A stretch of 64,000 nt of DNA from Echinometra lucunter (Eukaryota; Echinodermata; Echinoidea; Camarodonta; Echinometridae). A program made the translations under genes and the position numbers. Numbering within the stretch: the stretch's first letter is position 1; each line of letters begins with the position of its first letter. Location: assembly GCA_029962745.1 (NCBI GenBank), contig CM057165.1, positions 1,272,593 through 1,336,592 of the forward strand, read 5' to 3'. Below the pieces are notes generated by a model, which was not told where the DNA came from, did no database searches, and saw nothing but the letters and a program-made list of their open reading frames with translations. Below, piece after piece: positions 28,406 to 51,756 of the stretch.

Positions 28406-31400
28406 TTAGAGTTTCTTTAAAGCATCTATCAGTGAGAGAACATCCCATAAGTCAAGACCTAGTTCTTCCTTCAGGGACTTTAGGCAAAATTCTGGGGCAA
28501 GGCTCAGCAGGTTCTTGATCTGCATCAAGCGAGTGCCATTCACTTTCTTGAAGCGATTCTTGCTCGTATCAACACCATTCGATCTCAGCCATTTGCCCGC
28601 TTCTTCTTCATCCCATGTATCGATATCAACTGATTTCTGCGAGCAAGAGTTTTCCTTGTCTTTGTTGTCTGTTGGTTTGTCATCTTTCATTCCTCCACTG
28701 CAATCTACTTCGTCGTCTGTGCTATTCGCCTGCCTTTGACCATGGCCAGAAGAAAAACCTGTACCTAGAAATATGAATAGACAGTCGGACTTTAGAGTCT
28801 ATGGTTGAAGAGATTTGTATAGGGCCTTGCAGAAGAAGCTTTATAGACATGAAAGAATGAAATTTATTGGGAACACATACTATTCTTTGAAAGTTTATGT
28901 CATTCTGTATCTATTTGGTATAGATTCTTACTGTAGACATGAAACTTCAAGGGACAAGGTGTAATATAAAGTCTTGGACTTATCCTAATCTTGCATCTGG
29001 CATGTTTGTTGACAGCTTGAAATTCTTTCGACTATAGCTAATTGAAACCCTTTACATTGTTACCAACACTGATGAGGTATACAGAAGAGTTCCTTAGCCT
29101 ACCTTTAACTTCCTCAAACACCGGTACAATCAGATCACGTTTGCCTCTATCACCCAGCTCTTTGACAAGGTCGGGTAGACACTGTCTCATGCGCTCGTCT
29201 GAAAACATAGGATACCATTTCTTCATTCCCATGAGGGCACCTAGCCAGTCCTCGGGTGAGAAGTGGTCTTGGAGCATCAGTGGAATGATGTCTTTCTGCA
29301 GAGTGTAGGCGTACGTCGCTTCTGATGAACCCAATGAAAGAATGTGCAGTATATAGGTGAAATATTGGAAATAATGTCCTCGTGGCAAAAAGACAAATGA
29401 CTCCTATTTATGATGATGGCTTAGAACCAGGAGTATACGCCTTCTGCATTTGCTACTTTAACAGCAAGACAGGGAAGAATGGAAGAAATATATATATATA
29501 TATATAAAGAGGAACATGTCCCCTCGCAAAACGTGTGCAGTGCTTAATTTTAGTATACACAGTGAAAGAAAATAGAGAATGAAGCTTCATTCTCTAGTTT
29601 CTTTCACTATGTAAAAAAGATGGGAAGACTCTCACTCAGAACCATTCCCTGACTTGATGGCCTTGTTCTCTCGTGTGTTATCTCCTCCATTCAAAGTTGG
29701 ACCTACCCTACGACACCAATCCAGAAATCTGTTAATATCTGCATACCTGTACGACAGTGTTGGCTCTCTTTGAATTTCCGAGTCATGCAGACCAGGACGA
29801 CTGACGCTCTCTGGACCGCTTTGGCCATGGCATCTAATATATCACCGCCTGTTTACACCAAAGGCATGAAATATGAGTGGTTATAATGGATAAACAAGAG
29901 TAAAAATGACGCTATAGAAGCAAGAGGTTGGAGTGGAGACGGCCAACCCATGAGGATTTTTAGAAGTAGCAATATTCGGACAACTGGCACACTATACTCG
30001 GCAACCATTAGCGCATGTTCAAGTAGCAAGGTGGTGTATTTGTCATCTTTATTTTTTATAAAGATGTAGAAGAGAAGGTTAATTTTTTTGTCGGTTTGTG
30101 GTTTTTGTCGAGGATTTTCGCTCCCTCAAAATATTTAGAAACTGAAAAGTAAATATTCCAGCAAGAGACGTCAACGCCCTGACGAAAGTTTGTCCATACA
30201 CCTAATTAAAGACATTTTCCCTTAGGTGTTCGGACAAAAAAGGGGGCGGTTAGCATGAACAAGAGAGGAAAAGAAATAGAAGTGAAAAAAGAAAAAACTG
30301 AATAAAGATCCAAATGGAAGTATGTGGTCCTTACTCATTTTGTCGACATCCATCCACACGTTGTACCCACATTTCTCCAGGGATCTCTTAACCTGGAGCA
30401 TTCTCTCTTGACTGGCATGCTGGTAGCTGATCATGATATGACCCTCCACACGGCCTGACGAATCCTCACTCTCTCCTGATCTATGACCACGATCTTCACG
30501 ACGAGGGGTATGTCCCTTCTCCTCGTCATCGATGTCCAACACGTCATTGATGACGAAGAGAGCTCCCGAACATGCCTCCAAAACTTCATCGTTTCCAGTC
30601 GTCTCCTTGATTGCCTTCAGGGCTGTAAATATTCAGAGGAATCGTTTCACGTTGTTCATCTTTTTCAAATACTTGATGTCAGTATCTTACATGTACATTA
30701 TCAATGATTACGTCGCAAACAAAATAATGAAAACATCGGGCAGTGTCGGGAGCAACGAGTGAAAATGAAAAAAAAAAAAGAGGAAAACAGATAAAGTTAC
30801 AGGAAGAGATATAGATATCTTTATTCATCTCTATTTTGATCGATGTACTGAAATGTCTTTCAGGGCCAAAGTAATTCTCCTTCACTCGGGCCGACTCGGC
30901 AAACCTATTGACATCGACATAAGAAACAGAGCCTATATCTAAGTTTGCTACGCTAACTGCACCTGATAAACATCGACTTACCATCTAAGAGAGTCATTCG
31001 TTGGCGTATTTTTACTTTATTCCCTTCTTTGAACGCCAGCTGCCAAATTGTTCGTGCAGCCCAAAGCCTCTCATCGTTGGATGATCCTTCCTCCATCAGG
31101 ATGTGTTCCAGTACATCTATCCCACCAAGATTTACAATGAGAAGCTTGTTACTGTCGTTGATAGCAAGCTGGTTCAGGCCTTGCAGGACTTCGAGAGCTG
31201 AGTAGCCATAGACGGGAGATCGCCTGTCTGAGGCACTCATAGCCGACTCCAGAGCCAACAGGAGAAACTTGAGGCACGGCTCATTCAGGGATATCTTGTG
31301 AACTTCTGATTTGTCGACGATGTAGGAAAGCGCCAGAAATGCATCGGCTTGAATCTCAGGGTTCTTAGACTGCGAATATTCCTGGAGGATATCAATGTAC

Positions 31401-31891
31401 TCTCGACAAATGACTCGGTTCTCGGGAACCCTCCAACAGCAGTTGTAGATAATTGTCAGTGCAAAGCTGGTAAGGTCATTGTCAAGGTTACTTGTCCGTA
31501 GATCTCGCATGAAGAGGTTTAGAAGCCCCCTCTCGCCAAAAGCTAGACAAAATTCGTCCGAACCATCCGTCAGATTGCCGATACCGGACGATAGATCCGA
31601 CAGCTTGTTTAAGTGGAGGAAAGTCGAGGCGTTCCGTTTTACCAGACTCCTCCAGACAAGCGTAAATATCTCAAATATCTCATCGCAAGCGACCAGGTAT
31701 CTGATGACAGCCGATTTGATATCTCCTGCATTCATAGTGGTTATCACCTCAAATATGTTGAAACCATCAATGAATGTAACTGCCTTTAATTTGCGGTTGT
31801 CTTTGAATTTTGCAAGAAATTTGTCGATTTTATCACAATAGGCTTTAACAGTCACGTACTGCTCTTCCGTCAAATTTTGTAGGACATCCAT
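28406..31891 (-). CDS. ARM-TIR-SAM protein, gene 1
   Basis: Five minus-strand exons read in phase: 31891-30982, 30622-30335, 29848-29747, 29321-29103 and 28764-28406, giving 625 residues. The ATG was chosen because MDVLQNLTEEQ aligns with the starts of genes 2 and 3; the frame is open 24 codons further upstream. Residues about 1-303 are alpha-helical armadillo-like repeats (CCWRVPENRVICREYIDIL; GGIDVLEHIL followed by RLWAARTIWQLAF). A TIR domain begins near residue 365 (HIMISYQHASQE) and runs through GYNVWMDVDKM, VVLVCMTRKFKESQHCRTE and KDIIPLMLQ. The Glu at residue 434 is at the position of the TIR NADase catalytic residue. The hinge is short, with no 19-residue array. A SAM-like domain occupies about 555-625 (WDEEEAGKWLRSNG, DALKKL end). 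It points away from gene 2. NADase activity is inferred, not shown. Confidence 0.88.
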
Positions 31892-33923
31892 GGTGATTAC
31901 TTGAAGAGTCAATGGTGGCTGATATATCACATCGGTACAATTCATGCGTGACTGTATTTGCAATGTACATGTACGTATTGATCTCGATTCAGACTGACAA
32001 CGTGGACGAAATTAGGTCATTAACAGATTAAACAAACAACATCTGACTCTGCAAAAAGACCGGATCCCACTTATCCGACTAGCTGCTGGAACCGGATGGT
32101 CCCTGCTTTAAGCTTATGGGAATGAAAGGATTCAATAGCTTGTTAGTTTAGCAATAACTGTTGTTTTAATTCCAAGTACTATTTATCTCATCAGGTCTTC
32201 AACGAAATATTCATGCCAATATTGTTATAGAAATGAAAGAAACGAATAATAACAACTTCTAATGATGAACTCCTTGTTCAAATTGCGTTTGGTCTAGTAC
32301 ATGTACATTAATTTTGTTATCCCTCACGAAATACGTGTATGTTTGTTGGGATTTTTAGAGATTGTCAACAGAAGCATATTTCTCAGCACCACGCCCATCA
32401 TTATTTCATTTTTCACGCGAAGAGGGCTTCATCTGTCGAATGTATTCGGTCAAGCTCTCCGTCAAGCCGTATTTAAGTTATTCACGTTACATTTAAACAC
32501 GCTATTCAACATCATTCGTGTATTGCTCAATGTAGATAAACAATAAAGCTTGCCTTTAATCACAAGTTTTGTTTTGATAAAGGTTTTTAGCAGGTGGGAC
32601 CTGGCCCAAATTCTCAAAAAGGAAATCTAAACTGCCGGTATAACATCCGCGATAAAGGCTAATGGTTTACCGCGGATATTGGAAACTCTAAAATTATCAG
32701 AAAGTCGGCCATTAATTCAACCACTGGAGTTTTATTCCCTTTCATTCTTTCTAAAATATTTGATGTAAATTCATGTGTAATGTACCAAAATTAGCAGTGG
32801 ACTGGCGATGGCGAGTTTTGCCCCACGGGCCGTCATGATATCGGTTAAAAAAAGGCCGGTCGATAACAAAAAGTGCCGGTCGTAAAAACACACACACACA
32901 CACACATACACAAAGAAATAAATGGTGGTAAAACAACGAGGAAACGAGGAAAAGAAAACAAAAGACATAATACACAAATGAGAAATAATATTTTCTATAA
33001 ATAAATTCTAACAAAAATTGAGGATGAAGGATTCCAAATGTCTCCATGAAAGAAGCTGTAGAATAACAGTATATTGATTATTCTCCTTGTTGCAAAAAAG
33101 TTGCTGAAAAATTTCATCTCGACAAAATTTATATGCCCCTTAGTGAAAAATTTCGCTTTCACATGTGTACAAGTATGATGTATAGACCAATCCAACAACG
33201 CAAGAGGGCAGCAGACTGTTCGACACACAGTTCGACATACTGCCGCGGTGGGCGCTCCAACTGTTATAGTACACAAGTCAATAGCACGTTATGTACATTC
33301 GTTCGATTTTTTGTCTATTTTGACCAATATATGCAGATTTCTTTTAATATTTGCAATGATAAATTATCAGGGAAGTTCAGGTCGCAGTTGTGCGGTGCTC
33401 AAATGCCACAAGAATTGAAGGAAGTTTAAAAATTGGAAGCTAACTGAGTGCGAAATTCACTCGTTTTTGACTCATGAAGCCTGTTTGCGTGAGAAGCCGT
33501 ACTCCCTACACAAGTTTTCGTAAGCAATGTGAAGGAATTCGTTGCCAGTGGGCAAAAACATCAACAGAAATGACTTTGAAGTCAAGAAACATTATCATTA
33601 TGTACTTTGGCGTAAAATTTAATGAGTGAAAACATGACTTGTAAACAGGGTAAGATTGAGGGCTCCCGTTTACTACGGCTTCTATGCTGCAATCGAACTT
33701 TTACTGACAAAACTAAGTTGAAATACCGTCGGAAGTACAAAAATACATCATACCTTCATCTGTCAGATATGGCCATTGTCTTACCTCATCTTCCCATGTA
33801 TCCATGCTTTATTTCATTGATCTAGAATAAAGTAAGTGGAACAATATCAGGGCATATCTCATTTCTTACATTCGTTTTCTTTCTCCCTTCTCTCTTTCTC
33901 TCTCTATCTCTCTTCATTCTCTC

Positions 33924-33973
<50 letters not shown>

Positions 33974-34772
33974 TGCTTTTCTACTGTACCAGGGTTTTTT
34001 TTTGCACTAGGCCTATGTACTATAAACAGATATGCCGGATATTGTACATGTAGAAATCATTATGATGTCACACACACACCGGCTATTCTAATCAGATTGG
34101 CATGTATTTTTCTCTTTTTCTTTTCATACTGTGCACGTCATTTATCATGTTTATCTTTTGAATATTGTTTTTAACGTGTATATGTTTTGAAAATTGTTTA
34201 TAGAATAATGATGGGTAACCAGAATATATTAAGTATAAATTCACACAACCTTATGACGATGGGTATAATGTAGTCGTGTTTGTGTTTATGACGTGAGATT
34301 GAGTTTCCAAGAATCTTCGTTGCAGCAGGGAAATTTCACTAAGACTTCTTAGTATCATCAGGGAAATGTGACTGGTAAACTTTTCTCTGGTTGCTGTATA
34401 AGAGTATGTCTTATGTGCTTGGAGTTTGCATGTAAGCCAAAGTGGTCAGTATGAGGGCTTGCTTGTGCTGGACTATGTGTAGTACACATTTTCTGATGAT
34501 TGTATTTTCAAATCAGGCACAACCATTGGGCTGCGAAGTTTGATATCAAATAAAACCATTTCACTTCAGTTCATCTTAGTTCAGTTCATTTCAGTTCAGT
34601 TCAGTTCAGTTCAATTCAAGTCATAAATGGACCTTGAACATTAATAGTGCGCAGTACGATTTCCTTTCGACAACCATTCGCATATAACCATACGCATTCA
34701 TACGCGCATAATACGTATACGCATCTTGACTGGATTATACTTTAGAGCCGCATTCATATCAGGGTTGTCATT
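31892..34772. other. Divergent intergenic region between genes 1 and 2
   Basis: This spacer holds the promoters of gene 1 (right to left) and gene 2 (left to right). The gene 1 leader contains gtgatatatcag about 45 bp before its ATG. A stretch near 32726-32790 (ttctttctaaaatatttgatgtaaattcatgtg) recurs at 43362-43441 and 55326-55410, so parts of the spacer are shared among the duplicated blocks. Microsatellites: (AC)n near 32888, (CT)n near 33898-33970 and (CAGTT)n near 34585. No other gene is seen. Confidence 0.6.
34731..34772 (+). promoter_or_regulatory. TATA-like proximal element and leader of gene 2
   Basis: The sequence ggattatacttta lies about 40 bp before the ATG, followed by agccgcattcatatcaggg and gttgtcatt. 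The gene 3 upstream region (about 45691-45738) has the same arrangement: ggtttatatcatact, then agccgcattcacatcaaag and gttgtcaat. Conservation between paralogs in otherwise diverged flanks supports a core promoter with a very short leader. The start site itself is inferred. Confidence 0.45.
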
Positions 34773-37700
34773 ATGGATGCAAGACAGCAATTAACGGAAG
34801 AAGAACACTCCACTCTTAAAGAATTTTGTGATGATATCGATGAGCATTTGGCGAGATTAAAGGAGGAGCAAGATCTCAAGAAATTCGCCAACTCTGACGC
34901 CTTGCATTTATTCGAAAGGATCTTTAAGCTGGAAGAAGGGGGTGTCCGATCGGCTATTACGCGATATTTGGCATCAAGAGAGGAAGTTTACAAGATCTTT
35001 GAGCTCTGTTGGGACATTCTTGTTAAACATAGTATATCCTCTTCACCCGATGAAGACGGTCTATTGTATTCAGAACAATGGATTGCCAAGATTTTGAAGC
35101 TAACCGATTGCTCTGACGACATATGCCTTGCATTCGGACAAAAAGGTCTTTTACGGATGGTTGCAAAATCTCTTAAGATAGGTGGCCTCGAAAAAAATCC
35201 CGAAGAAAAAGTCAGAGCTTATGCAACAGCATTCATGTACAACTGCTGCTGGAGAGTTCCCGAGAACCGAGTCATTTGCCGGGAGTACATTGATATCCTT
35301 CAAGATCTTTCAGGGTCTGGAACACCAGACACTCGGGCCGATGCCTTCTTGGCTCTGTCTTACATCATCGACAAAGACGAGACTCATATGATAACGCTCA
35401 ATAAATTGTGCGTGAAATTCCTACTGTCAATTCTGAAACGGGCCACTATCGCATCAGGTGTGAGGTCTCGTGTCTATTGCTACTCAGCTCTTGAAGTCCT
35501 CCAAGGTATCAATCAGCTTGCTATCAACGACAGCAACAAGATCCTGATAGTAAAACTTGGTGGGATAGATGTACTAGAGCGAATTCTCTTAGAAGAAGGG
35601 TCGAATAACGGCGAGAAGCGTTGGGCTGCCCGGGTGATATGGCAACTCGCATTTAAAGAAGAGAATAAAGTGAAAATACGTCAGCGTACAACTCTCTTAG
35701 GCGGTGAGTCAGCTTGCAGGCAAATGATAATCAATATCGTATTTCAGTAGTATAGTGCGATTTGGTGGTTTAGTGGATAATACGTTGGTAATCAAAGTTT
35801 GTTATCCATTATTTTCAGCACTGAAGAAGATCAAGGAGACGACTGAGAATTGCGATGTTTTGGATGCATGTTCGGGAGCTCTCTTCGTCATCAATGACGT
35901 ATTGGACATCGATGACGTAGAGCAGGTACACACTCCTCCCCATGAAGTTCGCGGTGATAGATCAGGAGAGAAAGAGGCTTCGTCAGGCCGTGCGGAGGGT
36001 CATATCATGATCAGCTATCAGCATGCCAGTCAAAAGAGAATATTACAGGTTAAGAGATATCTTGAGGAATCTGGTTACAACGTGTGGATGGATGTCGACA
36101 AAATGAGTATGAACCTTTCCCTTCCCAATTGATCCATTTAATCCCCTCTCCTCTTTTTTTTTTTGTTTTTTTTTTTGTTTGTTTGTTTGTTTTGGGGGTT
36201 TTTTTTCTCGCTGTATGAGCAATCTGCATACAGGCATAGGGGAAAAATAGCCGCAACCCTCCTCCGCCCTCTTGTGACAAATCTTTTTCAATATCCACAT
36301 TCTCTCCCCCATTTCGGACCATCCTTAATCGTTCTCTACAATTCTTCTCTATTTCTTTCCTTTTGAACAATTACATTCATATATGAAATTACCAATTGTC
36401 TATATCGTTACCTCATTCTTTTGTGGGATTACTCATATCTTATGATTTGTGCATTCTCTTTTATGAAAACAGTGGGTGATATATTGGATACCATGGCCAA
36501 GGCAGTACAAGGAGCATCGGTTGTCCTGGTTTGCATGACTCGAAAATTCAAGGAGAGCCAACACTGCCGCACAGGTGATTACAACACACATTGGTATCGT
36601 CGTAGAAAGAACATGATTCAATATACAATAAAAATCCTGATAAGTCCGACCAACAGTCTAAACATAAAAGAATTTCATACAAGTGAAGTTACTTTGAATT
36701 TTAATTAATGGTAGCATGCTCGTAGATTCCCGGCTGCTTGCATGCGTGCAGAATGTTGTACCATTTTCGTAGTTCCTCCACTTCTCAATTTGCGGACCCT
36801 TCAACGTTGTCGCAATCTATCATTATTTCAGATTGTAACGTTGCAACGTCTGATCAAGAATACTGATATTCGTTGGTCTACTATGTCTTACCTCTTTCCT
36901 CTTTGCTTGTTCTTTGTTTTATCGTAATATTTCGTTCATCAGAAGCCACATACGCCTACACTCTAAACAAAGACATCATTCCTCTGATGCTTCAAGACGA
37001 CTTCTCACCCAAGGATTGGCTAGGTGCCCTCATAGGAATGAAGAAGTGGTACCCTATGCTTTCAGACGACCTCATGAGACAGTGTCTACCCGACCTTGTC
37101 AAAGAGCTGGGTGATAGAGGCAAACGCGATCTGGTCGTACCGGTGATAGAGGAAGTTACAGGTAACCTTATACAGACTCTCCTTCTTATTGATGTACATG
37201 CAATATACAAACCTATTTCATTCTTACAGGTTTGAACTACCTTTTTGATGAAGCGTGAAGAAACTTTTTGTTTTTGTTTTCTTTTGAGTCGATACATTAT
37301 CCTAAAAGAGAAGTCTCAGAATGCTTGATCTATTCAACAGGGTGACCAGATTTTCGATACCGAAATACGGGACTTTGTTGGGCCTCGACTCCAGAGCACA
37401 AGGCACAATATTTAGGGAAATTGCAAGCAAGCGCAGCGAGCGAGCAAAAATCATGAGAATCATCTTCATTGGCGTCCGTCTAAAAGTTGACGCCAAACAA
37501 AACTATTCAGCGGAATCCCATTATGAGAAGGATGATTAAATTAGAGGGAGGGGATTCTCGTATTGATTCTAATTTCTGCACCTCTTCCCATGGATGAGGT
37601 GTTTAATGTAAATCCACAGTCCTGTATTCTTTTCAAACGCATGTGGAGGCCGTGTTCGTTGATAGATTTATGGTTAAGTAATTTTGTAGATATGAAAACA

Positions 37701-39376
37701 ACACCGGATTTGTATTGCAATTTACGCCAGTATACTGAGGTAAGGTTATAAAATTATATTTTCAACATACTTCTCTGTTAGGTTGGTTGACAGAAAATAC
37801 ATCCTGGACACTTATAGTTCCAAGGTGCAGATCAGAATTTTCACATCGACAGGAGAGGGAAAGGGTGCAAAATTTCTAGCTGATTATTTCACTTTTTGCT
37901 TTACCATTCAACGGTTGGCCTCCTCTTGAGAAAAGAGATACTTAAGTTGGTACAGTGATGTTAGACTTCGGTGTTTTTCAGATATTTCGTCCCCACCTTT
38001 TCTAATAAAAAAATAAAGGATCGCTTTCAAAATTGTTAAATTGTTCTCATAATAGGCGCTGAAGATGTCAAGCCATTCATATGGATCTTCATTGAAGTTG
38101 ATATCCAGCTCATGAGTCTTTGTTTAGTGAAATATTGTACTTTAATTGTGCATTTCTACTACCAGTAAAAGCGGGGAGGAGTATTATGTTTGTACAGGTA
38201 ATGAATAATCAAAACTAAACGAGCGAGCGAAGCGAGCGAGCAAAGAAATATTGAAATTTTCTACTTCTGCATGATCATTTTATGAATATAGTATATCTAA
38301 TCTTCTAATCTACTTTGGGCTAAATATTCCATTATTTCAACAGTAAGTTTGAAATACGGGACAAAACGGCGTCCCGGGAAGGGTCTTAGGGGACGCGGGA
38401 CAGATGGATCACATACGGGACTGTCCCTTAAAATCCTGGACGTCCGGTCACCCTGCTATTCAAAGGCATGAAAAGGACCCTAAAAATCTTCTTTCAATAA
38501 ACATGATAGAAGATGGTCAGGAATGGTGATCATATATGAGTGAAGCAGATTGTACAGCAAATGCACATATCTTAAACTGTAAACTCTCATTTCGTGCCTT
38601 TTCCTATATCTCAAGGTACAAACCCTCCCACTTCTGGTCAAAGGCAAAAGGATAAGACAGCTTTAGATGAAGTCAGTGGACATGGTGGAGGAATGAAAGT
38701 ACATGACGCAGCTGTAGATGAAGTTGACTTCAGTGGACACGGCGAAGGAATGAAAGTACATGACGCAGCTGCAGATGAAGTTGGCATCAGTGGACATGGT
38801 GGAGGAATGAAAGTACATGACGCAGCTGCAGATGAAGTTGGCATCAGTGGACATGGTGGAGGAATGAAAGTACATGACGCAGCTGTAGATGAAGTTGGCA
38901 TCAGTGGACATGGTGGAGGAATGAAAGTACATGACGCAGCTGCAGATGAAGTTGACTTCAGTGGACATGGCGAAGGAATGAAAGTACATGACGCAGCTGT
39001 AGATGAAGTTGGCATCAGTGGACATGGTGGAGGAATGAAAGTACATGACGCAGCTGTAGATGAAGCAGACTTCAGTGGACACGGTGAAGGAATTGCAGGT
39101 GACAAACCAACAGACAAGGAAGACATGGAAAACTCTCGCTCAGAGAAATCAGTTGATGTCGATTCATGGGATGAAGAAGAAGCGGGCGAATGGCTGAGAT
39201 CAAATGGTATTGATACGAGCAAGGATGTCTTCAGGCAAGTGAATGGCACTCGCCTGATGCAAATCAAGAACCTTCTGAACCTTGCCCCTGAATTTTGCCT
39301 GAAATCTCTGAGGAAGGATCTAGGTATTGACTTCTGGGATGTGCTCTCACTGGTAGATGCGTTAAAGAAAATCTGA
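34773..39376 (+). CDS. ARM-TIR-SAM protein with expanded hinge repeats, gene 2
   Basis: Five exons: 34773-35703, 35819-36106, 36473-36574, 36943-37161 and 38616-39376, all phase 1 and GT-AG, giving 766 residues. Start MDARQQLTEEEHST. Residues 1-310 are ARM-like helices (CCWRVPENRVICREYIDIL; GGIDVLERILLEEG; RWAARVIWQLAF). TIR about 372-490: HIMISYQHAS, GYNVWMDVDKM, VVLVCMTRKFKESQHC, putative catalytic Glu 441 (CRTEATYAY) and KDIIPLMLQ. The Glu codon is split by intron 3. The hinge has about seven copies of a 19-residue repeat (VGISGHGGGMKVHDAAADE). SAM-like domain 696-766. SARM1, by contrast, is ARM-SAM-TIR. Intron 4 holds an 1118-bp hAT element. The likely role is NAD-cleaving immune or cell-death signalling, by inference. 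Confidence 0.9.
37338..38455. mobile_element. Non-autonomous hAT-like element in intron 4 of gene 2
   Basis: Termini CAGGGTGACC...GGTCACCCTG are perfect 10-bp inverted repeats. The 8-bp target duplication CTATTCAA flanks both sides (37330-37337 and 38456-38463). The corresponding intron of gene 3 reads atattcaaaggcat with no insertion, giving an empty site. An 8-bp duplication with CAGGG ends is typical of hAT elements. No transposase ORF is present. Confidence 0.88.
38645..39090 (+). repeat. 57-bp coding minisatellite (hinge repeats) in gene 2
   Basis: A 57-bp unit encoding a 19-residue motif (GHGGGMKVHDAA core) is repeated about seven times plus a partial eighth, in frame in exon 5. Units alternate between GIS and DFS versions and between GGG and GEG versions, which suggests unequal exchange. 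Gene 3 has about four units (49230-49490); gene 1 has none. Confidence 0.92.
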
Positions 39377-39889
39377 ACTTGATGAAAAGAAGCGTTATTC
39401 ACTCTAAACATTGCATGACCATAATGGAAGGCAGGGGCGGCACTGCAAGGGGCGCTCCCTATATTTTCAAGTGATCCCCCCCCCCAAAAAAAAAGAGAGA
39501 GAGAAAGAGGAGAAAGAGGAAGAAAGAAGAATATGGGAAAGAGAGGGCTTGGTCATGCAATAAACTCCTTCATTTAAAACGTAAATAAGATTTGCCCATG
39601 GATCATCTCCCCCCCCCCCCATCAAAATACCCTGGCGCCGCCCCTGATGGAAGGGCATGATTGACCATAATTAATAGACCATGTTTCCTTTGAGGGACAA
39701 ATGTTGTGATCGCATATATGCACTATTGGGCTTATTAGTCTGAAAATGAAAGATCGCGTATTTGCGAATGTCATTTTTATTTGTATATGATAATATCATG
39801 TGCTCAATATTCATTTCAACAATTTATTCACGTATTTTATTGATATTTGCGAGTAATAATGAGGGGAAACATTTACTTTTTACAGGTGT

Positions 39890-40260
39890 ATTATTCATGA
39901 AGCACACACCATTCATTCGTTTTGGTTTAAGAGCCTTGAAACGTAAGAGCAGTGTTTGTCTCTACAGGGCTTTACACTTGGCGCCATCTTATCTTATTGA
40001 CTTGTTAACTCCGTCTGTATAAACCAGAAAGAATGCTAGCTACATTCCAGTGGCAAGTTCTTTGCTTCATGTTCCACAAACCATGCAAAAGACATACGGG
40101 GAAAGGTAATTTTCACACCCAGCCATTATTTTGAGGAACAAGTTGCCAAAACATTTAAAAATTATTGGAACATATGACAGCTTCATCGGTACATTGATAA
40201 CACATTTATTCACCACTCCCTAAAAATTCAGAATTATGAACCAAGTGCACCTTTTCTGGT
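39890..40260 (+). mobile_element. LINE C-terminal relic, copy 1
   Basis: A degenerate frame reads RALHLAPSYLIDLLTPSV, then, across stops, LLHVPQTMQKTYGER and a GTSCQNI-like segment. This is the pattern of non-LTR reverse-transcriptase C-termini (LAPSYLSDLL...VPRTxxKTYGERxF). The duplicate copy is at 50330-50700. Dead element. Confidence 0.6.
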
Positions 40261-40312
40261 TAAATACTTCTTTTTTAACTCAATTCTTTAAAACCAGAGT
40301 AATATCTATTGT

Positions 40313-40487
40313 AGGAAAATAAACGTAAGGGGAACTTCCTGGAAATTATTGAGGAAACCCCGATTTTCCGTAATAAATCAGGAAATATTAAAAAAAAAAT
40401 ATCCCCCGAATCAGGTTTTCCTAGTGGGATATAGGAAATCGTGGTTTCCTCAGTAATTTTCAGGAATTTCCCTTAAGTCTATTTTCT
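40313..40487. mobile_element. Foldback MITE, copy 1
   Basis: The arms of about 45 bp (aggaaaataaacgtaagggg, then cttcctggaaattattgagg) are mirrored by the right half in reverse complement. The copy in the gene 3 flank is at 50742-50916. There is no ORF. Confidence 0.65.
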
Positions 40488-40546
40488 GAAAATGCAGAGA
40501 CAAGAAATTATGCCTAGTTATGCGCTATACAAGAATGTACAATTAG

Positions 40547-40679
40547 TAGTAGCAGCAGCAGTAGTAGTAGTAGTAGTAGTAGTTGTAGTAGTAGGAGGAG
40601 GAGGAGGAGGAGGAGGAGCGGTATTATTATCATTATCATTATTATTACTATTATAATCATTATAACTATTATTATAATT

Positions 40680-40720
<41 letters not shown>

Positions 40721-40770
40721 TATCATCATCATTATCACCACATCATCATCACCATCATCATCATGATTAT
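40547..40770. repeat. Compound trinucleotide microsatellite (AGT/GGA/ATC)
   Basis: Successive AGT, GGA, ATT and ATC arrays. A shorter version lies at 50973-51165 in the duplicated flank, so the array changed length after duplication. Not coding. Confidence 0.9.
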
Positions 40771-41521
40771 CATTACACCTTGGAGGAAAATTAATATGTG
40801 TTTTCCCGTTCTATTTTTTCACGGCGGACTTATACCCTAAAATCACTGTTTTGAGAAATTTTTGAAAAATATAAATCATTAATCCTTGCATTTACATCAT
40901 TTCAAAATGGCAATTTAAGTTGATTTTTTTTTCCAAGGGAAGGGGGAGCCGCTGCCCCCCCCCCCCTCCTGTAGTGGTCATATTACATGTACTTTGTAGG
41001 GAAGATAGTTTTAATCTCTAGAGTCAAATTATCTCTAAGGAGTCAATCTCTAACCCAACGAATTTGTATTAGTAGTTAGTAAAGTAATTGATAATAACTT
41101 AGTACAAGACCAGTAATATTGATTATCCTGCACAAAACATATTTTGAACACGTTTTCATGACGCTTTAAACTTAAAATAATTCCTTATTGCCGATTGATA
41201 TAGTTGAATTTGTTTAAACCTGGTCTATGTCTGATTGTAAATTCTCATTTGGAATAATGTACTTATTATGTTTTTGTAACCCATGTACAATTCAACCTCT
41301 GGTTGCGATGCATGAGATTTTTCATAAAGACCATTTTATCTATCTGTCTATCTATCTATCTATGTAACAGTCTTGGTTCTCTTAGGTTTTTTTCAATGCT
41401 GAGTTACCATTCGAATGCAGATATTTTATCAAACTATATTCATTGCAATAATAATTGCTACCATTTTTTCATCTATCTCTATATAAGTGTAAATGTCCGA
41501 CTGGTCTTCATTCATCTAAAG

Positions 41522-41983
41522 CAGTGCTTCGCAACCTTTTTTACCTCGAGGCCCACTTTGGCAACTAATTTTTTTTTCGCGGCTCACCTTCATTCTTAAA
41601 ATATTTTGAGGCCCACCTCAAATAATCTCGAAGAGAAAAAAAACATCAATAAAACATGACAAAAGAAAATAGCGAATTGTGTGGTAATTATCTGGACCAC
41701 TACCTACATTACATTACAAAATCCAACCTACAAGTATGGTTGTAATAAATGAAAGATTGATATAATACCCCCAACCCCAAATGTACAGATATTTTCGAAA
41801 ATTTTTAGCACATTGCATTGACGATAATCCTCAACCGTTGGTGTTATTTTGATATGTTTAATAAATTCAGTTCACTTTGATGTTAACTGGAAAGCTGAAT
41901 TCAAGAATTTTTTTCCAAAAAATTTAGACTGACTTCGCGGCCCACCTAAGAAAGCTTCGCGGCCCACCGGTTGAGAAGCGCTG
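41522..41983. mobile_element. hAT-Charlie-like MITE
   Basis: A 462-bp element with ends CAGTGCTTCGCAACC and GGTTGAGAAGCGCTG, and an 8-bp target duplication ATCTAAAG (41514-41521, 41984-41991). The interior has aaggcccac-type subterminal motifs (gcggcccacc). The duplicated flank at about 51905-51915 reads straight through the empty target (cattcatctaaagcatc). The insertion therefore came after the segmental duplication. Confidence 0.9.
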
Positions 41984-41997
41984 ATCTAAAGCATCAA

Positions 41998-43321
41998 TTA
42001 CTTTGCAGATGGATCCTGGCCCTCTGGGAGCCCGCATCCCATCCAGTTCTTAGACCGCGACTTAGGGTAATCTTTAGCGGCCGCCACCTTGCCATCATTA
42101 AACCTCCAATCACTGGCGTAGACAGGAATTTTCAACAGGGAGGGGGGGGGGGGGGGGGGCAAGGCGAGGGAGCGAATCGACCGAGCGGGGGAGGGTTTGG
42201 GAGGGGGTATTCCCCCTCCTACGGTAGGGAGATTTTGAAAATTCGTGCATGAAAATAGCATTTTCTGCACACTAAAATTCAGTATTAGGGATAGCTTATA
42301 ATTATGAGAAATGGCATATAGGGGGGGGGGTGTGGGAGGGGGTCCCCACTCCCAAGCTAGAGAGATTTTTGAAAATTCGTGCAAAATTCAAATTCAAATT
42401 CAAAATTTATTGCATGAAAATGGCATTTTCTGCACTCTAAAATTCAGTATTATGGATAACTTATATGAGAAGTGGCATATGGGGGGAGGGTGTGGAGGGG
42501 GTTCCCCCCCCCCTCCCACGGTAGCGATATTTTTGAAAATTTGTGAATAAAAAATGGCATTTTCTGCACACTAAAATTAGTATTAGGAAAAATTAGGGAT
42601 AACTTATGTGAAAAGTGGCATATAGGGGGCCAAGGCGAGGGAGCGAAGCGACCGAGCGGGGGAGGGTGTGGGAGAGGGTATCCCCCCTTCCACGGTAGGG
42701 AGATCTTTTTTAAAATTCGTGCACACTAAAATTCAGTATTAGGGGTAACTTATGTGAGAAGTGGCATATAGGGGGAGGATGTAGGAGGGGGTCCCCCTCC
42801 CACGGTAGGGAGATTTTCGAAAATTTTTGCATGAAAATGGCATTTTCTGCACGCTTAAATCCAGTATTAGGGGTAACTTATATGAGAAGTGGCATATTTA
42901 CTTTTAATTTCTTCTCACAGGGTAGGGGTAGGGTAAGTTATGTGAAGTGGACTCGAAAGTTTTTCATATGAATATATATTTTTAATTTTTTTAAATATTT
43001 ATTTTGGTTTTTTGCTCGCCGATCAACAGGGGGGCCATGTCCCCCCCCCCCCTTAACTACGCCAGTGCCTCCAATACTTATTCCTGAAGAAGTACGTCTT
43101 GCTGTTCCTCCACTTCAAGGCAGCATCCAGCATGCTTGGTATTCCTCTCCAGTGCTGGCTGATATCCCTGGACTCGAAAAAGCGAGCGCCTTTGAAGATA
43201 TAGATCCTGCCGTCGTCACCGCAATTTACAGCTGCATCAGGCACAGTAGGGAAACCCTTAGGCTTTGGACGGGGAAAGTCTGCTTCAAGCTGCTTCCCGT
43301 AATAGCGCCATATTTTCTTGC
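41998..43321 (-). pseudogene. Hemopexin-domain (MMP-like) exon interrupted by a transposon, copy 1
   Basis: Minus-strand reading from 43321 gives KKIWRYYGKQLEADFPRP, DAAVNCGDDGRIYIFKG, HWRGIPSMLDAALKWRN and KTYFFRNKYW. After a 957-bp insertion it continues WRFNDGKVAAAKDYPKSRSK and NWMGCG. These are hemopexin repeats with the WR(F/Y), DAA and WMGC landmarks of matrix metalloproteinase C-terminal domains. There is an AG acceptor before 43321. No catalytic domain or other MMP exon is seen nearby, and the insertion breaks the frame, so this is a stranded exon. Copy 2 is at 51916-55273. Confidence 0.85.
42111..43067. mobile_element. hAT-like element inside the hemopexin exon, copy 1
   Basis: Ends CACTGGCGTAG and CTACGCCAGTG are inverted repeats. 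The 8-bp target duplication CCTCCAAT flanks it (42103-42110, 43068-43075). The interior is a tandem array of ~150-bp units containing cattttctgcacactaaaat, aagtggcatatagggg and gagcgaagcgaccgagcggg. Copy 2 shares the same insertion point, so this event predates the segmental duplication. Confidence 0.88.
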
Positions 43322-43475
43322 CTAAATAATAAAGAGGAAAAGACTGAAAATTCTACAACATCACTGGAGTTTATTAGTTTATACTCTTCCATTCTTTCTG
43401 AAATATTTGATGTAAATTCATGTGTAATGTACCAAACATCATATACTATAAGTGCTCCTGACACAACCTTCTTCT

Positions 43476-43735
43476 TCTGCTCCTTTTCTTTCCTTTTTTA
43501 ACGTTTTTTTTCTTTTCTTTTTCTGTTCTTTCTTTTTTTTTCTCTTAATCTTTGTTCTTCTTTTTCCTTTTCATTTCTTTTCACTATTTTTCCTTTTTTC
43601 CTTTTTTTTGTTTATCTTTCTTTCCTTTCTTTTTGTCTTCCTTTTTTTTGTTGTTCTCTTCATTTTTTTCTCTCTTTCTCTTTGTTTTTCTTCTTTTCTT
43701 TCTTTTTTTCTCTTTCTTCTTTCTTTTTGCCTAAA
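43476..43735. repeat. Polypyrimidine tract (T/C), about 260 bp
   Basis: An almost pure TTTC/TTTT tract on the plus strand, just upstream of the dead ARM exon. It may adopt unusual DNA structure. It is low complexity, not coding. Confidence 0.85.
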
Positions 43736-43892
43736 TTTGTAGAATAAAGGACAGCGCTTTTGTTGCTGGAGGGTTTCCAAGAACCGAGTAATAAGTCGGG
43801 AATACATGAAAACCCTTTAACGTGTTTAAAATCTTTCAGAATCTAAAACCCTGGATATTTAGGCTGATGCCTTCTTGACTCTCTCTTACATA

Positions 43893-44304
43893 ATGGTGGC
43901 CCTGAAGTACGCTCGACAACAGGTGATGTGCGACGTGAATTTCGCATGCCAGGTCCTGAACTTCGCATCCGAGGTCATGAAATTCATGACCCGTGGCGCA
44001 AACTTTGCATTCCAAGTCGTGAAACTCATAAGGACTGGGATGCAAAGTTCGCGCCACGGGTCCTGAATTTCGCACCGCGGGTCGTGAATTTCGCGACTTG
44101 GGATACAAAGTTTGCGCCACGGGTCCTGAATTTCGCACCGCGAGTCGTGGATTTCACGACTTGGGATGCAAAGTTTGCGCCACGGGTCATGAATTTCGCA
44201 TCGCGGGTCGTGAATTTCACGACTTGGGATGCAAAGTTCAGGACCTGGGATGCGAAATTCACGTCGCACATGACCTGTTGTCGAGCGTACTTCAGGGCCA
44301 CCAT
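43893..44304. mobile_element. Foldback element inside the dead ARM exon
   Basis: The ends atggtggccctgaagtacgc and gcgtacttcagggccaccat are inverted repeats extending over 70 bp (gctcgacaacaggt, cgtgaatttcgcat). The interior is built from short repeats alternating aagtttgcgccacgggtc and ctgaatttcgcaccgcgagtc. A CTTACA duplication is visible at the flanks. The element splits SYI from the following DK codons of the ARM frame. Confidence 0.8.
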
Positions 44305-44529
44305 GCTTACACGATTGACAAGTCATATGAAAACGTTCAATAAACTTTGCGTGGAATTCCTGCCTGGAATTCTTTTCGCACCTTTGAAATCGGCCATGAA
44401 GAGTTTTCCCCGTACTTCCTTCTCACTTCTCCAGATCCTTCAGGGTATCAATGGGTTTCCATACCAACGACAGCAACCGTGAAGCTCTCCTCGTTGATTT
44501 CGGTGGCCTTGATAATATTCGAACAACTG

Positions 44530-44700
44530 CTAAAGGAAGAAGAAGCAAAAGAAGGAGAAGAAGAAGAAGAAGAAGCAAAAGAAGAAGAAGAAGGAGAAGA
44601 AGGAGAAGAAGGAGAAGAAGGAGAAGAAGGAGGAGGAGGAGGAGAAGAAGAAGAAGAAGAAGAAGAAGAAGAAGAAGAAGAAGAAGAAGAAGAAGAAGAA
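44530..44700. repeat. (GAA)n/(GAG)n microsatellite in the dead ARM exon
   Basis: A purine-only array at the site where live paralogs encode a short acidic loop (LLEEGSNN). It probably grew from glutamate codons after the copy lost function. Frames through it are polyE or polyR and are not genes. Confidence 0.9.
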
Positions 44701-45738
44701 TGGCCTTAGAATGAGAAGGCTGTAAACTGCACAACTGCACGCGTGATACGGCATCCAGCACCAAACATGAGAACAAAGCAATACGTCAACAAATGACCCT
44801 CGTAGACGGTAAATCGGCGTATATAGGCCAGTTATATTGATGTATTTTCATTTCAAAAGGATATTGTATTTCACTGTTTTATGCGGAAGGTTCTGAAATT
44901 TCAACGTCTTCTTGGAGGAAGCTGTTTAATCATGTTAATGACAGTAATTAATAGTGATGAACCAAAGTTTAATGATCTGTAACATTTTTGTCTTTTTCCC
45001 TTGCCTTCAACTCTTCTCTCTTCTCCCATCATTATTCTCATTGTTGAAAAAAAAGTTGTTGGAAATTTTGACAAAATTGATATGACGCCTTATAGTTATG
45101 GAAATTTCTCTTTAAATTGCGTAGGCCCTACAAGTATTGTGTGTACTGTGTATGTGTATACAAAGTGTATATGGGTGTCTACATAATATAAATATATAGT
45201 ATAAACAGTATAAATTGTAAAAAGGTATAACGTTAAATGAATATAATTATTTAGACAATTGATCTTCAAAATAGAAGCTTTCTTTTACTATACTTATCCA
45301 CGTTTGTTTCTTTCAATATTCATGCATTACACTTATATACACAGAACCGGATTTAATATTTGTTTGTGTTTTCCCCCTTCAGATTCAATGATTTGTAAGA
45401 ATGATTTGTTTTAACCTCTGCATAATTTGCTTGTTTGCATGAAATTTGGCATACCTGACATTTAGTAGCGTCTGAACCGTGACAGAGACCACAAAATGCG
45501 AGGGACTTGCAGAACATTGTTCGCTTACAAATTAATGCTCTGTCCCCCCCCCCCCCCCATCCTTTGTCCTCTCGCCGTTCCGACGCGACTGCTTACATTC
45601 CTTCAACATATCGAAATATACGGACTTTGAGCATTCACTTTTTATTATTGCCTTTTAGTCAACCCTACATCATACAAATACGAATCTCGGTTGGTTTATA
45701 TCATACTTCATAGCCGCATTCACATCAAAGTTGTCAAT

Positions 45739-48146
45739 ATGAATCCTGAACAACCATTAACGGAAGAAGAACACTATACTGTTCGAGTCTTTTGTGATGA
45801 TATCGATGAATATTTGTCTAAATTCAAGCAGTGTCCAAGTATCAAGGAAGATGAAAACTTCAGTATCTTGCCTTTATTGGGCGAAATTGTTTCTTTGGAA
45901 GGAGTTGTAAAGTCAACTATTACAAAGTATATTGCATCTAAAGAGGAAGTATTTGACATATTTCTACTCCACTGGGAAACTGTTGTTAAACGCAACATTT
46001 CCTCTTTACCCATAGAGGATATGTTGTCTCTGGAAAATAGCTTTGTGAATTTCACCCATTGCTCGGACGACATTTGTCTTACATTGGGACGAAATGGTTT
46101 GTTACAGGTGCTTGCTGAATCCCTTAGGATAGAGAACCTCGACGAATATATCACAAAAATAGCACTAACAATTATTTACAACTGCTGCTGGAGGGTTCCC
46201 GAGAACCGAGTCATTTGTCGCGAGTACATTGATATCCTCCAGGAATGTTCGCAGTCTAAGAACGCTGAGATTCAGGCCGAAGCATTCCTGGCGCTTTCCT
46301 ACATCGTTGATAAATCAGAAGTTCACAAGATATCCCTCAATGAGCCGTGCCTGAAGTTCCTACTCTTGGCTCTAGAGTCCGCCGTGAGTGTCCCAGATAG
46401 GGAATCTCCCGTCTATGGCTACTCAGCGATTGAAGTCCTGCAAGGCCTGAACCAGCTTGCTATCAATGACAACAACAAGCTTCTCATTGTAAACCATGGT
46501 GGGATAGATGTACTGGAACACATCCTGATGGAGGAAGAATCATCCAACGATGAGAGGCTTTGGGCTGCACGAGCAATTTGGCAGCTGGCGTTCAAAGAAG
46601 AGAATAAAGCAAAAATACGCCAACGTCTGACCCTCCTAGACGGTAATTGATCATGTCACTATTTAGAAGGTTAACCAAAATAGACATTCACTTTGATGTT
46701 AATTAGTTTGGCGAGTGAGAGAAAGTTAGATTTGTCTAGAAAAGACAAGGGAAACCGTATGGTTTCTCTTCTTAGTCTGTGAGAATAAGGGAATCTTGTT
46801 GACAACGGGTTACCGATCAAATAATGTAGAGAAATGAGATACCCATATCCCTCCCTACTCCATGTACTCCTGCCTCTTTTCTTCCTCTCTTATCTTCTCG
46901 GTAAGCTTTCTTCATTGTTTGTAGTATATCATGTCCGTTCATTAAAGCGGACTCGTAACTGCAAGATAAACTTGAATAGATTTAAATCAGATTTTTTAAA
47001 AAGTAGATCCGTCTACTAGTACATAAAATAATATAAAGGGATTCGTCTGTTCATTATTTATAGCACTGAAGAAGATCAAGGAGACGAGTGAGAATTGTGA
47101 TGTTTTAGAGGCATGTTCGGGAGCTCTCTTCGTCATCAATGACGTATTGGACATCGATGACGTGGAGCAGGTACACACTCCTCCCCATGAAGTTCGCGGT
47201 GATAGATCAGGAGAGAGTGAGGATTCGTCAGGCCGTGTGGAGGGTCATATCATGATCAGTTACCAGCATGCCAGTCGAGAGAGAATGCTTCAGGTTAAGA
47301 GATATCTTGAGGAATCTGGATACGACGTGTGGATGGATGTTGACAAAATGAGTAAAAATAAATTCTTCCTCTCCAGTTCATCACCTTTCTCCTATACTCC
47401 TTTTATCTTTATACCCCAGTGCATTGCCGGATATCAACATAGGGTAGAAAAAATGCTACCCCTTCGCCTCATGGTGCTTTCCACAAAAATTTTCCTACTC
47501 GGTTCCCCCATCCCTTCCCTAATGGGCAACTGTAGATCCGACTTTGCGCTACTTCTGTGCTTTGTTACTTTTACATTAGTATTATTATATTTTTTCTGTC
47601 TTGCTCTTAACATCCATTGTCTGTCTCTACTTCAAATTCAAATTCATATTTATTAATTTCCAAAAGAAAGAAAAGAAATACACTGATATTTGATAGGTAT
47701 AATTACAGACAAATATGAAATAAAGTATATATGCAGTTTCATTTTTTTTCTTGATAAGTATACATATAAAAAAAATAAACAAAAGAAATTCTTAGATTTT
47801 GCGGAAATGGAGGGATCCACTAAAAAGCGTTGTTTGTAGTTTGTGAATCCCCCATCCCTTGGGTTTGCGACATATATTTTGTGTTCGTCTTGTTCTCTTT
47901 CATGGTAACAGAGGGTGACATACTGGATGGTATGGCCAAGGCAGTCCAGGAAGCTTCACTCGTCCTGGTTTGCATGACTCGTAAATTCAAAGAGAGCCAA
48001 CACTGTCGTACAGGTAAGTGAAATACAATACATTTTTATATCACCACCAGTCTGAAAAAAAAAAACAAGAAAGAAAGTTGTAACCGGTGTTATTCTTGAG
48101 AGTACTGTATATCTGACCCAAGCAGTCGAGGGAGTTTCGGTTATTC

Positions 48147-48178
<32 letters not shown>

Positions 48179-49778
48179 TTTTTTTGACTCATAAATTCAA
48201 ATAGGGCCGACACTGCCGAACAAGCGATTAGAAGACACTTTTGTAGCATCGTCGAAAGACTATGATTCAATATACCATAAGATCCTAAAAAAGCCAACTT
48301 GCCCTAAGATAACAAACCTTGTCATACCATGCATACGACAGGGTTATTTCTTAAATTGGGGGGGGGGGGGTCTTCTTTTTCTTTTCTCTCTTTTTTTTTT
48401 TCTTCTTCTTGATGACCGCATTGTTGTAATTCCATGCCGCTTGCATGCGTGCAGAATGTTGGATCATTTTCGTCTTCGTCCCTCTAGGGCCCTCTATATC
48501 AATTTGCGGACTCGTCAGTGCTGTCGCAGTCTCATCATTTTGGATTATAACACTGCAACGTCTGATCCTTGATCATGCCTCTTTGCTTGCCTTATAATAA
48601 CATTTTGGTTCATCAGAAGCCACATACGCCTACACCTTAAAGAAAGACATCATACCTCTGATGCTTCAAGACAACTTCTCACCCGAGGACTGGCTAGGTG
48701 CCCTCACAGGAATGAAGAAGTGGTACCCTATGTTTTCAGAAGATCTAATGGGCCAGAGCCTTCCTGATCTAGTCAAAGAGCTGGGTGATCGAGGAAAACG
48801 TCGTCAGGTCGTACCGGTGTTAGAGGAAGTTACAGGTAACCTTACAGGCTCTCCTTCTTATTGATGTACATGCAATATACAAACCTATTTCATTCTCCAG
48901 TTCTTACAGGTTTGAACTACTTTTTGGATGAAGTGTGAGGAATATTTGTTTTCTTTTCTTTTTTTCCTTTTAGTCGATACATTATCCTAAAAAAAGACGT
49001 CTCAGAATGTCTCAGATATATTCAAAGGCATAAAAAAGAACCTTACAACTCTTCTTGCAATAAACATGATAGTAGATGGTCAGGAATAGGAGATCAAATT
49101 AGTGAAGCAGATTCTGCAGCAAGATTCTGTGGTATGGACATATCTTAAAATGTAAACTCTGATTATTTTCCTATATCTAAAGGTACAAGCCCTCCCACTT
49201 CTGGTCAAAGGCAAAAGGATGAGAGAGCTGCAGCTGAAGCAGACTTCAGTGGACATGGTGGAGCAATGGAAGTACATGAGACAGCTGCAGATGAAGCAGA
49301 CTTCAGTGGACATGGTGGAGGAATGAAAGTACATGGCACAGCTGCAGATGAAGTAGGCTTCAGTGGACATGGGGGAGGAATGAAAGTACATGACGCAGCT
49401 GCAGATGAAGCAGACTTCAGTGGACATGGGGGAGGAATGAAAGTACATGACGCAGCTGCAGATGAAGTAGGCTACAGTGGACACAGTGAAGGAATTACAG
49501 GTGACAAACCAACAGACAAGGAAGACATGAAAAACTCTCGCTCAGAGAAATCAGTTGATGTCGATTCATGGGATGAAGAAGAAGCGGGCGAATGGCTGAG
49601 ATCGAATGGTATTGATACGAGCAAGGATGTCTTCAAGAAAGTGAATGGCACTCGCCTGATGCAAATCAAGAACCTTCTGAACCTTGCCCCAGAATTTTGC
49701 CTGAAATCTCTGAGGAAGGATCTAGGTCTTGACTTCTGGGATGTGCTCTCACTGGTAGATGCGTTAAAGAAAATCTGA
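45739..49778 (+). CDS. ARM-TIR-SAM protein, gene 3
   Basis: Five exons: 45739-46642, 47064-47351, 47912-48013, 48617-48835 and 49183-49778, giving 702 residues. Exons 2-4 have exactly the lengths of genes 1 and 2 (288, 102, 219). Start MNPEQPLTEEEHYT; the frame is open 16 codons upstream, but only this Met aligns with the paralogs. ARM-like region 1-301 (CCWRVPENRVICREYIDIL; GGIDVLEHILMEEE). TIR begins near residue 363 (HIMISYQHASRE), with GYDVWMDVDKM, VLVCMTRKFKESQHC and the putative catalytic Glu 432 (split codon). The hinge has about four 19-residue repeats. SAM-like 632-702. Intron 3 contains a decayed copy of exon 3. Function as for gene 2, inferred. Confidence 0.9.
48086..48224 (+). pseudogene. 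Decayed duplicate TIR exon 3 in intron 3 of gene 3
   Basis: The frame reads GVILEST, TQAVEGVSVIL, then a (TTC)n/poly(T) tract, then THKFK and RHCRT. It parallels the live exon (GDILDGMA, KAVQEASLVLVCMTRKFK, QHCRT). The ~70 bp after it resemble the start of gene 2's intron 3 (catgattcaatatac), so exon and intron duplicated together. Expansion of TTC has destroyed the core beta-strand codons. Confidence 0.8.
49230..49490 (+). repeat. 57-bp coding minisatellite in gene 3
   Basis: About four in-frame units of the same 19-residue hinge motif as gene 2 (FSGHGGGMKVHDAAADEA), followed by a degenerate unit (YSGHSEGITGDKPTD) leading into the SAM domain. Confidence 0.9.
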
Positions 49779-51082
49779 ACTTGATGAAAAGAAGCGTTAT
49801 TCACTCTAAACATTGCATGACCATAATGGAAGGCAGGGGCGGCACTGCAAGGGGCGCTCCCTATATTTTCAAGTGATCCCCCCCCAAAAAAAAAAAAAAA
49901 AAAAGAGAGAGAGAAAGAGGAGAAAGAGAAGAAAAGGAGAAAGAGGAAGAAAGAATAATATGGGAAAGAGAGGGCTTGGTCATGCAATAAACTCCTTCAT
50001 TTAAAACGTAAATAAGATTTGCCCATGGATCATCTCTCTCCCCCCCCCCCCCCCAATCCAAATACCCTGGGGCCGCCCCTGATGGAAGGGCATGATTAAC
50101 CATAATTGATAGACCATGTTTCCTTTGAGGGACATATGATGTGATCGCATATATGCACTATTGGGCTTATTAGTCTGAAAATGAAAGATCGCGTATTTGC
50201 GAATGTCATTTTTATTTGGATATGATAATATCATGTGCTCAATATTCATTTCAGCAATTTATTCACGTATTTTATTGATATTTATGAGTAATGATGAGGG
50301 AAAACATTTACTTTTTACAGGTGTATTATTCATGAAGCACGCACCATTCATTTGTTTTGGTTCAAGAGCCTTGAAACGTAAGAGCAGTGTTTGTCTCTAC
50401 AGGGCTTTACACTTGGCGCCATCTTATCTTATTGACTTGTTAACTCCGTCTGTATAAACCAGAAAGAATGCTACATTCCAGTGGCAAGTTCTTTGCTTCA
50501 TGTTCCACAAACCATGAAAAGACATACGGGGAAAGGTAATTTTCACACCCAGCCATTATTTTGAGGTACAAGTTGCCAAAACATTTAAAAATTATTGGAA
50601 CATATGACAGCTTCATTGGTACATTGATAACACATTTATTCACCACTCCCTAAAAAGTCAGAATTATTAACCAAGTGCACCTTTTCTGGTTAAATACTTC
50701 ATTTTTACTCAATTCTTTAAAACCAGAGTAATATCTATTGTAGGAAAATAAACTTAAGGGGAACTTCCTGGAAATTATTGAGGAAACCCCGATTTTCCGT
50801 AATAAATCAGGAAATATTAAATAAAAATATCCCCCGAATCAGGTTTTCCTAGTGGAATATAGGAAATCGTGGTTTCCTCAGTAATTTTCAGGAATTTCCC
50901 TTAAGTCTATTTTCTGAAAATGCAGAGACATAAAATTATGCCTAGTTATGCGCTATACAAGAATGTACAATTAGTAGTAGCAGTAGTAGTAGTAGTAGTT
51001 GTAGTAGGAGGAGGAGGAGGTCGGAGGAGGAGGAGGAGGAGGAGCAGTATTATTATAATTATCATCATCATCATCATCATCG

Positions 51083-51113
<31 letters not shown>

Positions 51114-51724: not shown

Positions 51725-51756
<32 letters not shown>

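Follow-up and report, generated by a model that had tools for sequence, protein, structure and literature searches.

Do sea urchin genes that unite ARM, TIR, and SAM domains encode SARM1 with its parts reordered, or do they form a family of their own? The question is raised by a stretch of the Echinometra lucunter genome (assembly GCA_029962745.1, contig CM057165.1, here C15, positions 1,272,593 to 1,336,592 of the forward strand), the whole 64,000 nucleotides of which are called the window below. Three neighboring genes with a common five-exon layout lie in it: A (minus strand, 31891-28406), B (plus strand, 34773-39376), and C (plus strand, 45739-49778). On balance, we lean toward reading their products as switchable NAD-cleaving immune proteins, in which ARM would be the restraint or sensor, the TIR domain bears the catalytic glutamate (Glu), the hinge is variable, and SAM would be the oligomerizer, and toward placing them in an old family that is probably separate from SARM1. 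NADase activity, autoinhibition by ARM, oligomerization through SAM, and an immune role are what we infer for these proteins.

Gene structure and domain order

Splicing yields open frames of 625, 766, and 702 residues for A, B, and C, respectively, each encoding the order ARM-TIR-hinge-SAM. All 12 introns have GT/AG ends and lie in phase 1. Upstream of the chosen ATG, the frame stays open for 40 (A), 9 (B), and 36 (C) codons until a stop. Intron 3 (29747/29321, 36574/36943, and 48013/48617) cuts the codon of the catalytic Glu after its first base. The TIR-SAM hinge of B and C is mostly an in-frame 57-bp minisatellite encoding 19 residues per unit, with seven full units in B and four in C; A is devoid of it. 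The exons and a related remnant are as follows.

30982-31891, minus strand: gene A exon 1, most of ARM (spliced model; full-length homologue at 72%; ARM by profile and model)
30335-30622, minus strand: gene A exon 2, end of ARM, linker, and start of TIR (spliced model, Pfam)
29747-29848, minus strand: gene A exon 3, middle of TIR (spliced model)
29103-29321, minus strand: gene A exon 4, remaining TIR, the codon of the catalytic Glu (residue 434) being split across exons 3 and 4 (spliced model, homologue alignment)
28406-28764, minus strand: gene A exon 5, repeat-free hinge, then SAM (spliced model, animal-only profile, exon 5 model)
34773-35703, plus strand: gene B exon 1, most of ARM (spliced model)
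35819-36106, plus strand: gene B exon 2, end of ARM, linker, and start of TIR (spliced model)
36473-36574, plus strand: gene B exon 3, middle of TIR (spliced model)
36943-37161, plus strand: gene B exon 4, remaining TIR with catalytic Glu at residue 441 (spliced model, homologue alignment)
38616-39376, plus strand: gene B exon 5, hinge containing 57-bp repeats (38673-39093) followed by SAM (spliced model, repeat search)
43761-44452, plus strand: decayed exon 1 remnant, interrupted by stops and split into 43761-43895 and 44303-44452, between B and C
45739-46642, plus strand: gene C exon 1, most of ARM (spliced model)
47064-47351, plus strand: gene C exon 2, end of ARM, linker, and start of TIR (spliced model)
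47912-48013, plus strand: gene C exon 3, middle of TIR (spliced model)
48617-48835, plus strand: gene C exon 4, remaining TIR with catalytic Glu at residue 432 (spliced model, homologue alignment)
49183-49778, plus strand: gene C exon 5, hinge containing 57-bp repeats (49219-49495) followed by SAM (spliced model, repeat search)

The first-pass annotation of this DNA had proposed three five-exon genes with ARM, TIR, hinge, and SAM, and splicing, Pfam TIR_2, profiles, and models all bear this out. The HMM search that it suggested for the three domains succeeded with TIR, Pfam TIR_2 (PF13676) scoring 70, 67.8, and 69.8 bits in A, B, and C against a cut-off of 28, and failed with the other two: Pfam Arm is slightly under its cut-off in A and C and absent in B, and Pfam SAM gave nothing above cut-off in any of the three. 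The ARM assignment is backed by a family profile compared with the PDB (best E 1e-34) and by the predicted structure of the nearest homologue, and for SAM the support comes from an animal-only profile and from a structural model of exon 5 as it stands in the window, each of which matches SAM structures, including those of SARM1. According to these models, the N-terminal part of A, B, and C is a predicted ARM solenoid and the C-terminal part a predicted SAM domain, as had been claimed; the structure prediction and comparison with SARM1 proposed at the same time returned ARM at the N-terminus of the nearest homologue and SAM in exon 5. A single SAM is seen both in the nearest-homologue model and in exon 5. 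In a Foldseek search with the whole model, SARM1 and TIR-1 lead the list; the whole-model VIA alignment is filled by ARM chains and says little on TIR or SAM. Single-sequence PDB searches returned nothing useful with the SAM piece and only E 0.15, for TIR-1, with the TIR. For the C-terminus, Pfam offers no more than a weak Ish1 match; it was profile and model that settled on SAM.

Conservation of the TIR domain

A search of 5.8 billion proteins with A, which scored only the 7,993 candidates sharing the most words with it, gave 107 homologues at E 1e-3, of which 82 were aligned and 25 left out as near-copies or distant. The column of the catalytic Glu contains E in 81 of the 82 sequences and a gap in the remaining one, and the residue is kept in A, B, and C. 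The TIR profile aligns it with the Glu of Cat1, TIR-1, and SARM1; in SARM1 this residue, E642, is required for NAD hydrolysis (PMC7282519). TIR pairing in SARM1 needs D594, E596, and G601 (PMC8635717), which map, through the TIR profile alignment, to D393 (82/82), D or E at 395 (79/82), and G399 (79/82) of P0001. At E 0.01 the profile matches 20 PDB sequences, made up of 17 from SARM1 or TIR-1, one from Cat1, and two SEFIR sequences, with no TIR of a TLR or of MyD88 among them. The scores are 27.9 bits for Cat1, 26.0 for TIR-1, and 24.7 for SARM1. These matches favor a NADase-type TIR, which may or may not be a distant relative of the TIR of SARM1. Since the catalytic Glu and the TIR-TIR interface residues are kept and the nearest solved relatives are NADases, SARM1-like NADases are the likeliest identity of A, B, and C as judged from sequence, which supports the first of the two functions that the first-pass annotation had offered.

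The second, that of adaptors, seems rather unlikely. A, B, and C would then be non-enzymatic, their TIR recruiting TIR proteins of the Toll pathway and their ARM and SAM acting as scaffolds. Many animal TIR proteins are indeed scaffolds, NADase activity is absent from the TIRs of TLR4 and MyD88 (PMC7282519), and the ARM-TIR proteins of Aplysia are classed among the TIR adaptors (PMC9334734). TIR partners exist, since the whole genome yields 86 or more TIR_2 matches at E 1e-3, many of them within open frames of ~900 aa. Against an adaptor role, however, stand the catalytic Glu and the SARM1-type pairing residues, kept almost without exception, and the nature of the nearest solved TIRs, which are NADases and not those of TLR or MyD88.

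Spread of the domain order and relation to SARM1

The best homologue, a Strongylocentrotus purpuratus protein, is 72% identical over 100% of query A. Other rows come from Lytechinus, Diadema, brittle stars, sea stars, crinoids, a sea cucumber, molluscs, Lingula, a coral, lampreys, a hemichordate, and green algae. The TIR tree groups A, B, and C with S. purpuratus and Lytechinus (support 97/91); its outgroup, pieces of TIR-1 and Cat1, sits on very long branches (8.2 and 7.4) and leaves the family unrooted. Local profiles find TIR in 106 of the 107 homologues and SAM, at E 1e-3 with a search space of 107, in 75; the family members that went into the SAM profile partly overlap with the 107. All 75 place SAM after TIR, an order that spans echinoderms, molluscs, lampreys, and green algae. 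By text pattern, 59 of 82 sequences have a SAM tail; the profile count is preferred because the pattern misses W-F and W-I variants.

This constant position of SAM in every SAM-bearing homologue, from echinoderms to green algae, points to an old ARM-TIR-SAM family to which A, B, and C belong. The first-pass annotation had called for a survey of this order in echinoderms, where it recurs, as it does beyond them. Compared by taxa alone, the homologues fit group 18 of a TIR survey (PMC7075850). A GTDB scan with one distant homologue (P0099), which reaches close relatives only, produced 106 pattern matches and no confirmed relatives.

Could the three genes nevertheless be SARM1 paralogues, reordered by a shift of SAM behind TIR, as their first description as SARM1 parts in a different order might imply? 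The three domain types are the same as those of SARM1, and SARM1 and TIR-1 both top the Foldseek list and provide most of the PDB rows of the TIR profile. In the E. lucunter genome, a TIR-1 segment finds one place, on contig C4, with 58% identity over 66 residues. The SARM1-type TIR exon found there carries the DWVH motif, and the next exon begins at the Glu, so that the intron lies directly before the Glu codon, in phase 0 (about 3625 and 5850 of the locus), one base earlier than in the cluster genes. This one-base offset may be chance or a trace of common TIR ancestry.

Even so, descent from SARM1 appears improbable, because the SARM1-type TIR exon exists separately in the genome and because 75 of 107 homologues have the ARM-TIR-SAM order, which green algae share with many animal groups. 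The SARM1-family order ARM-SAM-SAM-TIR was not found, the SAM exon following the TIR in all three genes. Nor is the SAM equipment that of SARM1, with one SAM and not a tandem pair; the ARM is not SARM1-like in particular; and Cat1 slightly outscores TIR-1, the best row of the SARM1 group, with the TIR profile (27.9 versus 26.0 bits). The ARM-TIR-SAM family is thus probably separate from SARM1 and not a shuffled SARM1. That the exons are separate genes and the three-domain protein a modeling artifact is barely credible: although the exon joins of A, B, and C are predicted from genomic sequence, their exon order, phase, and splice sites are identical, gene models of homologues from several phyla hold all parts in a single chain, and Pfam calls ARM, TIR, and SAM in order within single algal proteins.

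Copy number and mosaic history

Copy counts in the genome are lower bounds. Exon 1 of A has at least 13 matches. Besides A, B, C, and a further gene, D, all four on C15, these comprise the decayed remnant, a single match on C2, two matches on the small contig C2021, and five on C18, of which one has stops. At least 12 matches were found for the SAM exon: four on C15, five on C18, and one each on C2, C2021, and C19. Copy D (C15:1338426-1353303) lies 1.8 kb outside the window. Part of its exon 2 is duplicated, its third intron is very long, and its SAM exon contains a frame shift, which may be genuine or due to faulty assembly. A second family cluster lies at C18:15107444-15170662, with one copy resembling P0022 (S. 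purpuratus LOC100893943), and a single family member at C2:22491975-22499624. Over exon 1, the C2 gene and a Lytechinus protein share 86.7% identity; for the cluster genes, no homologue above 72% occurs among the 107 rows.

Similarity among the paralogues changes along the genes. Over residues 1-135 of the reference, A is 57% identical to S. purpuratus, 39% to B, and 36% to C; over residues 136-302, A is 89% identical to C and 80% to S. purpuratus; and the SAM domains of B and C are 96% identical. Synonymous divergence (dS) between A and C falls from 2.3 in the N-terminal part to 0.34 over the remaining ARM, and that between B and C is 0.04 in SAM. DNA similarity between A and C in exon 1 ends at 31462, at about residue 143. 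Paralogue differences are thus greatest in roughly the first 143 residues, and later parts are locally homogenized. B and C also lie in a segmental duplication, with blocks common to 34707-42882 and 45668-52257 and 91.8% identity across the 2.7 kb that run outward from exon 5. This mosaic, as it appears in the sequences, is most simply read as the product of gene conversion or unequal exchange. The ratio of nonsynonymous to synonymous divergence (dN/dS) is 0.14-0.46 per computable region, one comparison being saturated, and remains below 1 in 40-codon windows. Turnover of the family is supported, which upholds one part of the earlier picture of a clustered immune family with dead copies; the several dead copies supposed within the window come down to one remnant, D lying outside.

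Other features of the window

Repeats occur in two further places. At 16730-19153, units spaced ~573 bp apart contain 66-bp repeats, and the minus strand has open frames of 170-174 aa there; at 21523-23124, tandem repeats of 186 and 192 bp contribute to a 224-aa open frame, also on the minus strand. Three long frames at 56638-60630 resemble, by eye, a non-LTR retrotransposon with endonuclease and reverse transcriptase. A search of the window against Rfam gave no matches.

Proposed mechanism

By analogy with SARM1, ARM would keep the TIR inactive and sense a trigger. SAM would gather several chains so that their TIRs pair, and the paired TIRs would cleave NAD as the output. The hinge would allow the TIR to be driven from its C-terminal side, the 19-residue repeats setting the reach between TIR and SAM. 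We take the C-terminal SAM as the gathering part because plant TIRs fused to SAM show NADase activity or trigger cell death: SAM at the N-terminus of a plant TIR enables NADase activity, the C-terminal case being quoted there as unpublished data (PMC7282519), and a TIR-SAM fusion of SADR1 is active in plants (PMC10242710). A broader and more tentative proposal is that the family represents an ancient class of eukaryotic NAD-cleaving immune switch, independent of SARM1 and found from algae to lampreys, in which SAM drives TIR C-terminally and the diverging N-terminal half of ARM would confer specificity of recognition, having been varied in sea urchins through gene conversion while the effector core stayed conserved.

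Several observations weigh against a switchable NAD-cleaving immune protein. The catalytic Glu is necessary yet insufficient for NADase activity, and a search of all 107 homologues for the Glu motif recovered it in 97, most of the other 10 being short or distant rows. By profile against the PDB, the ARM sequence resembles general ARM proteins (designed ARM, Vac8, and beta-catenin), and in the search with the ARM-family profile the top-scoring stretch of the SARM1 chains is their SAM and not their ARM. No SAM is detected at E 1e-3 in 32 of the 107 homologues. Among these are short models as well as paralogues that end differently (P0011 and P0012, for example); either some relatives can do without SAM or their models are incomplete. 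Two of three TIR-SAM fusions of the SADR1 group caused no cell death, their protein not being detected (PMC10242710). Finally, regional and 40-codon dN/dS revealed no positive selection among A, B, and C, so the turnover reading relies on the number of copies, the decayed remnant, the disrupted fourth copy, and the mosaic make-up of the genes.

Comparison with known systems

The combinations closest to A, B, and C each contain part of the set. ARM and TIR occur in one invertebrate protein in molluscs (PMC4346834, PMC9334734) and in the ecTIR-DC proteins, whose family 6 has ARM, Death, and two TIR (PMC6836662); no C-terminal SAM is mentioned in the available text of these papers. TIR occurs with SAM in a hybrid gene of amphioxus from which a transcript was recovered, a likeness drawn from its description, and the available text mentions no ARM (PMC2575513). 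Engineered plant TIR-SAM fusions indicate that SAM can turn a TIR on, and the order TIR-then-SAM is reported to be functional (PMC10242710, PMC7282519); those fusions are artificial, whereas the order in A, B, and C is natural and has ARM in front. ARM-TIR and TIR-SAM proteins are already known from invertebrates; searches of the open-access literature gave no description of the three-part ARM-TIR-SAM order. In a TIR atlas, the eukaryote-only clades 3 and 9-13 are described as uncharacterized to date, and the ARM-TIR-SAM family may be among them (PMC13142454).

Cat1, a CRISPR-associated TIR protein, is the best PDB match of the TIR profile and has its Glu aligned with that of the family. It is bacterial, is switched by cyclic oligoadenylate, and is not known to carry ARM or SAM.

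The nearest system in parts is SARM1/TIR-1, with ARM, SAM, and TIR all present, the Glu aligned, the residues of the BE interface kept, and the top Foldseek matches. It differs in its order, ARM-SAM-SAM-TIR against ARM-TIR-SAM, in its tandem SAM pair against one SAM, in an ARM that those of A, B, and C do not specifically resemble in sequence, and in typically being present once per genome (PMC7075850), against a multigene cluster here. SARM1 has hitherto been read as the animal way of uniting a sensing ARM, an oligomerizing SAM, and a NAD-cleaving TIR. A second widespread family with the same parts in another order yields simple, testable predictions and amounts to a natural test of what is essential to the control of SARM1: the position of SAM, the number of SAM domains, or the contact made by ARM.

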